From assembly GCA_902588585.1 (NCBI GenBank), contig CACIPQ010000001.1, positions 159,710 to 223,709 on the forward strand: 64,000 nucleotides of DNA, in the 5' to 3' direction. The notes below the pieces were generated by a model, which did no database searches, was not told where the DNA came from, and worked only from the letters and a program-made list of their open reading frames with translations. The position numbers and the translations under genes are program-made. Below, piece after piece: positions 29,783 to 30,528 of the stretch (positions within the stretch are counted from its first letter, which is position 1; the number at the start of each line of letters is the position of its first letter). Source of the DNA: an uncultured Pelagibacteraceae bacterium. Lineage in GTDB: Bacteria; Pseudomonadota; Alphaproteobacteria; Pelagibacterales; Pelagibacteraceae.

Positions 29783-30019
29783 CTATTTTAATAATTTTCT
29801 GTATGCAAATATTACAGCAAACACAATTATTAATGCGGCGATCCCTTGACTTCCCAAATTATTAAGTAGTCCAACTAAATTTTTAGTAACTTGAGAACCA
29901 AAAAAAGCAACATTGGGGCCAAATATTACTTCTGCAATAACCGATACGGCCAGCAAAAGTACACCTACTTCTATAAAACTGTTTAAATAATATTTTATCT
30001 TCGATATCCAATTTTTCAT
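29783..30019 (-). CDS. small two-helix membrane protein, paralog of the next gene
   Basis: 78 aa; strong SD CAAGGAGACTTATG; hydrophobic helix - polar loop - hydrophobic helix; aligns with the 30144..30359 product. Confidence 0.75.
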   Translation of the reverse strand: MKNWISKIKYYLNSFIEVGVLLLAVSVIAEVIFGPNVAFFGSQVTKNLVGLLNNLGSQGIAALIIVFAVIFAYRKLLK

Positions 30020-30129
30020 AAGTCTCCTTGTTTTGAGTTCGTTACCCCAACCTAATCAATTAACCAAGGAGGAAAAGACTGGGGTAACAAAGATTAGCAA
30101 CTGCCTTATACTGGGAGGTTTTCAGCTGC
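30020..30129 (-). promoter_or_regulatory. structured intergenic leader (candidate SD-sequestering pseudoknot)
   Basis: 9-bp perfect stem 30080-30088/30041-30049 whose loop contains CTCCTTG (30071-30065, minus), complementary to the SD CAAGGAG (30030-30024); second hairpin 30129-30123/30103-30097. Confidence 0.5.
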
Positions 30130-30143
30130 CAATATTTTATTAG

Positions 30144-30359
30144 TTACTTGTAAAAGCCAAGGATGATTATAGCTGCTACTAAACCAACTATTCCAGCATC
30201 ACCTAAAGCTTGTACTAATCCAACGATATTATCTGCAATTCCGCTAACGAATGGAACGTTTCCACCAAGTAGCGAAACTACGATTCCTAACCCAAGTAAA
30301 GATATAACTACTCGAGTTAAAGAAGTGATAGTCGATGATAGTCCTGCTAACATTTTCAT
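30144..30359 (-). CDS. small two-helix membrane protein, paralog of the adjacent gene
   Basis: 71 aa; SD-like GAGGGAAG upstream; VVISLLGLGIVVSLLGGN-VPFVSGIADNIVGLVQALGDAGIVGLVAAIIILGFYK. Confidence 0.75.
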   Translation of the reverse strand: MKMLAGLSSTITSLTRVVISLLGLGIVVSLLGGNVPFVSGIADNIVGLVQALGDAGIVGLVAAIIILGFYK

Positions 30360-30528
30360 AACTTCCCTCTTTTTTTGTTAAACAAAAAACAAAACGAACT
30401 GATTCGTTTTGTACTGACTTACTTTACCACCTATTGAGTCTGGCCTCTATTAAATTGAACGGGCTCTATAAGTGAGTCTAATCAAGCTTTTTGTGACCCA
30501 GATTGGGGATAAATGATTCGTTAATTTT
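30360..30528 (-). promoter_or_regulatory. long 5' leader with terminator-like hairpin (candidate attenuator or small RNA)
   Basis: ~169 nt non-coding; perfect 10-bp hairpin ACAAAACGAA-TCAG-TTCGTTTTGT followed by a T-run, about 24 nt before the ATG; shares a motif with the leader of the paralogous gene. Confidence 0.5.
30384..30412 (-). terminator. intrinsic-terminator-like hairpin upstream of a small membrane protein gene
   Basis: 10-bp inverted repeat 30389-30398/30403-30412, 4-nt loop, U-run on minus strand. Confidence 0.6.

Follow-up and report, generated by a model that had tools for sequence, protein, structure and literature searches.

The spacer between two paralogous membrane-protein genes arranged in tandem on the minus strand of a Pelagibacterales (SAR11) genome holds a real, evolutionarily conserved RNA hairpin, here called hairpin B, which lies directly 5' of the second gene and whose pairing is maintained by compensatory changes in relatives; in this respect the expectation of a structured RNA element in front of gene 2, raised by an earlier sequence-only reading of the same DNA, is borne out. 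The most probable role of hairpin B, to which a likelihood of roughly 55% is assigned, is that of an intercistronic mRNA-stabilising hairpin that sets the expression of gene 1 above that of gene 2. SAR11 bacteria are among the most abundant bacterial groups of the ocean and their genomes encode few regulators, so that the adjustment of protein ratios through RNA stability would be a plausible and economical route. The result is a clearly covarying RNA element tied to a family of small membrane proteins that is widespread in Alphaproteobacteria.

The features of the locus are given below in the direction of transcription, with positions referring to the window, that is, the whole 64-kb stretch of DNA that was analysed.

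30389-30412, minus strand: 10-bp hairpin 5' of gene 1, core AAAACGAA/TTCGTTTT, with a T-rich tail.
30144-30359, minus strand: gene 1, coding for a 71-aa two-helix membrane protein, paralogue of gene 2 by profile match.
30093-30133, minus strand: hairpin A, 11-bp helix (30133-30123 with 30103-30093), loop 30122-30104, with CCTCCC at 30118-30113.
30038-30091, minus strand: hairpin B, 16-bp helix (30091-30076 with 30053-30038), 22-nt loop 30075-30054 containing CTCCTTG.
30024-30030, minus strand: Shine-Dalgarno (SD) region of gene 2, CAAGGAG, an exact 7-nt complement of loop B in the window genome only.
29783-30019, minus strand: gene 2, coding for a 78-aa two-helix membrane protein.

The two genes are separated by 124 nt and the start codon of gene 2 is the ATG at 30019-30017. 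Both proteins are predicted to be helical hairpins and are homologous to each other by profile comparison; their AlphaFold models are of moderate confidence (pLDDT 77 and 74, pTM 0.35 and 0.38). Sequence and fold searches of Pfam, NCBIfam, PHROGs and PDB gave no family assignment for either protein, no relatives were matched in the viral contigs searched, and a literature search for small membrane proteins of SAR11 returned nothing. The family, albeit without an assignment, is widespread in Alphaproteobacteria: two-helix membrane proteins of 70-80 aa, sometimes in tandem, recur across the class (loci L116-L138, besides window 29783-30359). The pair is present in 5 of the 31 genomes of the window's genus (g1, G000-G030), in 41 of 396 genomes of the family and in 53 of 398 of the order, and the class sample of 386 genomes has relatives of the proteins, single or paired, in 39; these fractions are rough, since many genomes are incomplete and the samples of order, family and class overlap. 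The neighbouring genes on both sides differ between clades, which fits a self-contained two-gene unit, and the patchy presence in the genus together with the differing flanks suggests loss or transfer. In relatives, hairpins of different sequence are found at the same place 5' of gene 1 as the one at 30389-30412 in the window; this hairpin may represent the mRNA 5' end or else a terminator of the upstream gene.

In the window, the arms of hairpin B, TTTGTTACCCCAGTCT (30091-30076) and AGGTTGGGGTAACGAA (30053-30038), form 16 contiguous pairs including G-U. All the minus-strand elements on which the sequence-only reading was built are in place, namely GTTACCCCA (30088-30080), CTCCTTG (30071-30065), TGGGGTAAC (30049-30041), CAAGGAG (30030-30024) and the ATG; the 9-bp stem that it described is present and perfect, but represents only a part of the longer helix. 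The competing pairing of CTAATC with GATTAG can likewise be drawn, but it overlaps hairpin A and the extended stem of B and, by eye, is lost in relatives. Helix B is the sole helix of -24 kcal/mol or lower on either strand of the window (loops of up to 30 nt), and dinucleotide shuffles yield 0.11 helices of such stability per strand.

When the 127-nt leader was searched for as DNA in 61 relatives, its sole match was itself, and the homologous loci were therefore gathered through the proteins, with gene starts placed by homology and hairpin positions assigned by a best-helix rule. The resulting comparison set consists of 75 distinct spacers, 43 from Pelagibacteraceae and 32 from another family, drawn from partial genomes (MAGs and single-cell genomes) with uneven sampling. 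A strong hairpin is located just 5' of gene 2 in all 75 spacers, with a median of -26.8 kcal/mol and the weakest at -18.6 kcal/mol, a value reached by 1.1% of shuffled spacers, whose median is -11.2 kcal/mol. Genus g2 contributes 16 spacers, in which pairing of helix B reaches 99.5% and 9 of 12 pairs are changed on both sides; when hairpins A and B are evaluated jointly in this genus, none of 500 shuffles is as good and slid controls are 20-55% paired, the latter preserving relatedness among the sequences while shuffling does not remove it. In the window's group, formed by the window and its six nearest relatives aligned from hairpin B onward, the helix is 92.9% paired with compensation at 5 of 16 pairs. 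Among non-Watson-Crick cells, GT predominates over AC (13:2 and 21:2 in two alignments), an excess that indicates selection on the sense RNA. Stem and loop sequences of hairpin B are entirely different from genus to genus; the loop is AU-rich or tiny in most genera and has 3-7 nt in the subclade-II-like family. Among protein relatives outside the order, not counted here as support, a hairpin can be seen by eye before the gene in some cases and is absent in others.

The specific architecture proposed by the sequence-only reading is an H-type pseudoknot: base pairing between loop B and the gene 2 SD would control translation of gene 2, possibly upon binding of a ligand. As the conserved function this is very unlikely. 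The window does contain the exact 7-nt complement, with a duplex of -12.4 kcal/mol including a second short helix, and loop B is C/U-rich in 5 of the 7 sequences of its group; against this, the loop-SD helix is 55.6% paired in the same group, compared with 52.3% after shuffling and 36-58% in slid controls, so that in the alignment of orthologous leaders, named beforehand as the check, stem 1 is conserved and compensated while stem 2 does no better than the controls. Swapping partners between loci gives the same picture for a conserved sequestering of the SD, since native pairs of loop B and gene 2 SD reach -5.4 kcal/mol and swapped ones -5.5 kcal/mol, with 56% of permutations as good. In most genera loop B is too short to pair with the SD; the 7-nt complement is found in 1 of 43 Pelagibacteraceae spacers, the window itself, and no spacer of the other family has even 5 nt. 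In particular, a genome of the same genus (G018), whose gene 2 protein is 96% identical, has a 9-nt loop, TCATAGATT, with an SD complement of at most 3 nt. The motif as such, a stem of 9 bp or more whose loop and tail are complementary over 7 nt, is at chance level in the window, with 3 cases on one strand and 2 on the other, compared with 2.0 per strand in shuffles; in 8-12% of shuffles a loop of such composition has a 7-nt complement in the SD region.

The kinship with preQ1-I, SAM-II and SAM-V riboswitches that had been suggested is not upheld either: the stem sequence varies freely, leaving no aptamer core, while in SAM-V most triplex nucleotides are more than 97% conserved (PMC6061858). 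Rfam searches of the window gave no riboswitch family at the gathering threshold, nor any at E <= 10 in 29950-30500, lax hits being at chance level, and in the relatives only a neighbouring tRNA reached the gathering score. A whole-genome search for SAM-V was also without match, which is weak evidence in that control genomes gave none as well. In the RNA of the window itself the pseudoknot may still form, without visible selection, and the locus provides a worked case of a convincing single-sequence pseudoknot that dissolves once relatives are compared.

Hairpin A is restricted to Pelagibacteraceae and absent in the other family, and its stem changes while the motif of its loop stays: 34 of 43 Pelagibacteraceae spacers carry a CU-rich motif (CCCTC, CCTCC or CTCCC) 5' of B, compared with 4.2 expected from shuffles. 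The loop (window 30104-30122, loci L072-L114) resembles an anti-SD and fits no specific partner tested. In swap tests this loop did not covary with the SD of either gene, and the specific pairings were rejected as candidates: A with SD1 reaches -8.2 kcal/mol native and -9.5 swapped, A with SD2 -4.7 and -5.1, and B with SD1 -2.3 and -2.5. The swap test addresses specific partners, and a generic anti-SD role of C/U-rich loops is compatible with its result; hairpin A may act in trans. According to one such explanation, A and B would together constitute an sRNA processed from a 3'-UTR, whose C/U-rich loops pair with the SDs of other mRNAs as in CcsR or cuckoo RNAs. The retention of the CU-rich motif despite changing stems and the 71-aa protein gene upstream, a layout resembling the CcaF1-CcsR locus, speak for it; it is nonetheless quite improbable, given that most genera have an AU-rich or tiny loop B, that the other family has no hairpin A, that gene 1 encodes a membrane protein and not a DUF1127 protein, and that no terminator follows B. 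A related proposal, in which loop A of a processed two-hairpin spacer RNA would pair with SDs in trans and loop B would have been recruited as an extra anti-SD and pseudoknot in the window's lineage only, is held to be similarly doubtful.

The position of hairpin B near the start codon, with a median distance from the helix base of 23 nt in Pelagibacteraceae and 12 nt in the other family, would also suit a role in impeding or tuning gene 2 translation that needs no pseudoknot and works, for example, through ribosome block or reinitiation, and in many subclade-II-like spacers the sole GGAGG sits within the 3' arm of the helix. This mode of action is nevertheless unlikely, as 41 of 43 Pelagibacteraceae spacers, and two of the other family (L065 and L068), have an unpaired SD-like sequence 3' of the helix. 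Strong stems are able to pause polymerase, and hairpin B could also attenuate transcription between the genes as a partial terminator; this is given little credence, since 0 of 43 Pelagibacteraceae spacers and 3 of 32 of the other family have five or more T among the 8 nt that follow the helix, a terminator scan of the window reports none at hairpin B, and the hairpin lacks the succession of GC-rich stem and U-tract typical of intrinsic terminators. One Pelagibacter genome (L072) differs from almost all others in that its helix B ends in TTTTTTT, which is part of the stem, and there termination is possible. The long palindromic sequence between the genes could finally act as DNA, as a protein-binding site or cruciform, an explanation that is extremely improbable, because GT cells far exceed AC cells and the pattern is not strand-symmetric, the sequence of the inverted repeat is unconserved between genera, and its place before gene 2 is constant and orientation-dependent.

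The reading of hairpin B as an mRNA-stabilising element accommodates most of these observations: the fixed position, the strong pairing independent of sequence and the lack of a U-tract in nearly all copies (L072 being the exception) fit a hairpin that shields the upstream message against decay from its 3' end, and what is found is a stable RNA hairpin, conserved in structure, between co-directional genes. A promoter 5' of gene 1 would drive both genes; after cleavage of the downstream part, the GC-rich helix B would halt 3'-to-5' exonucleases, and the gene 1 segment of the message would outlast that of gene 2, yielding more gene 1 protein than gene 2 protein. The hairpin would thus act through its stability and not through its sequence, and the lineage-specific complement between loop and SD might slightly lower gene 2 translation in the window genome alone. 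The SD of gene 1 scores stronger than that of gene 2 in 39 of 43 Pelagibacteraceae spacers and in 30 of 32 of the other family, SD strength being a proxy for translation only. Points against the decay model include the SD of gene 2 in the window, which outscores that of gene 1 (-8.3 against -6.5), hairpin A with its conserved CU-rich loop, for which stability alone does not account, and the possible termination at helix B in L072.

Among known systems, SAM-II, SAM-V and preQ1-I riboswitches share with the window genome the ability of a loop to pair with the SD in an H-type topology; they differ from this locus, in which there is no conserved aptamer core, the pseudoknot is unconserved, no Rfam family is matched and the downstream gene encodes a small membrane protein instead of a metabolic enzyme. 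The CcaF1-CcsR locus of Rhodobacter (cuckoo RNA, CIN1 locus) is a loose alphaproteobacterial parallel, in that a hairpin whose loop is C/U-rich and anti-SD-like comes after a small-protein gene; its defining DUF1127 protein is absent here (gene 1 has no Pfam match), tandem sRNA copies were not found at this locus, and the cuckoo motif CCUCCUCCC contrasts with CCUCC/CCCUC. The C/U-rich motif lies 5' of B, does not form the CCUCCUCCC repeat and is missing from loop B in most genera. In Ca. Pelagibacter ubique, candidate structured RNAs (Meyer et al. 2009, PMC2704228) are similarly SAR11 intergenic elements found from sequence; the named motifs seen there, rhtB, pntA, bablM, rpsB, SAR11_0636, ffh and SAM-V, have gene contexts different from that of hairpin B.

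The closest likeness is with the hairpins of the puf operon (after pufBA) and of malEFG, which are stable, lie between two genes without a U-tract and are unrelated in sequence to hairpin B; the upstream gene is needed in excess in those operons, while here decay protection and the protein ratio are deduced from sequence. Of 34 E. coli operon pairs whose first gene is stabilised, 26 have a 3' end just past a stable hairpin, and these hairpins are without a terminator-type uridine tract (PMC5927463). In Rhodobacter, according to work cited in PMC10253847, the photosynthetic complexes are made in different proportions when the hairpin behind pufBA is removed. The upstream genes of that operon also code for small membrane proteins, as in the locus described here.
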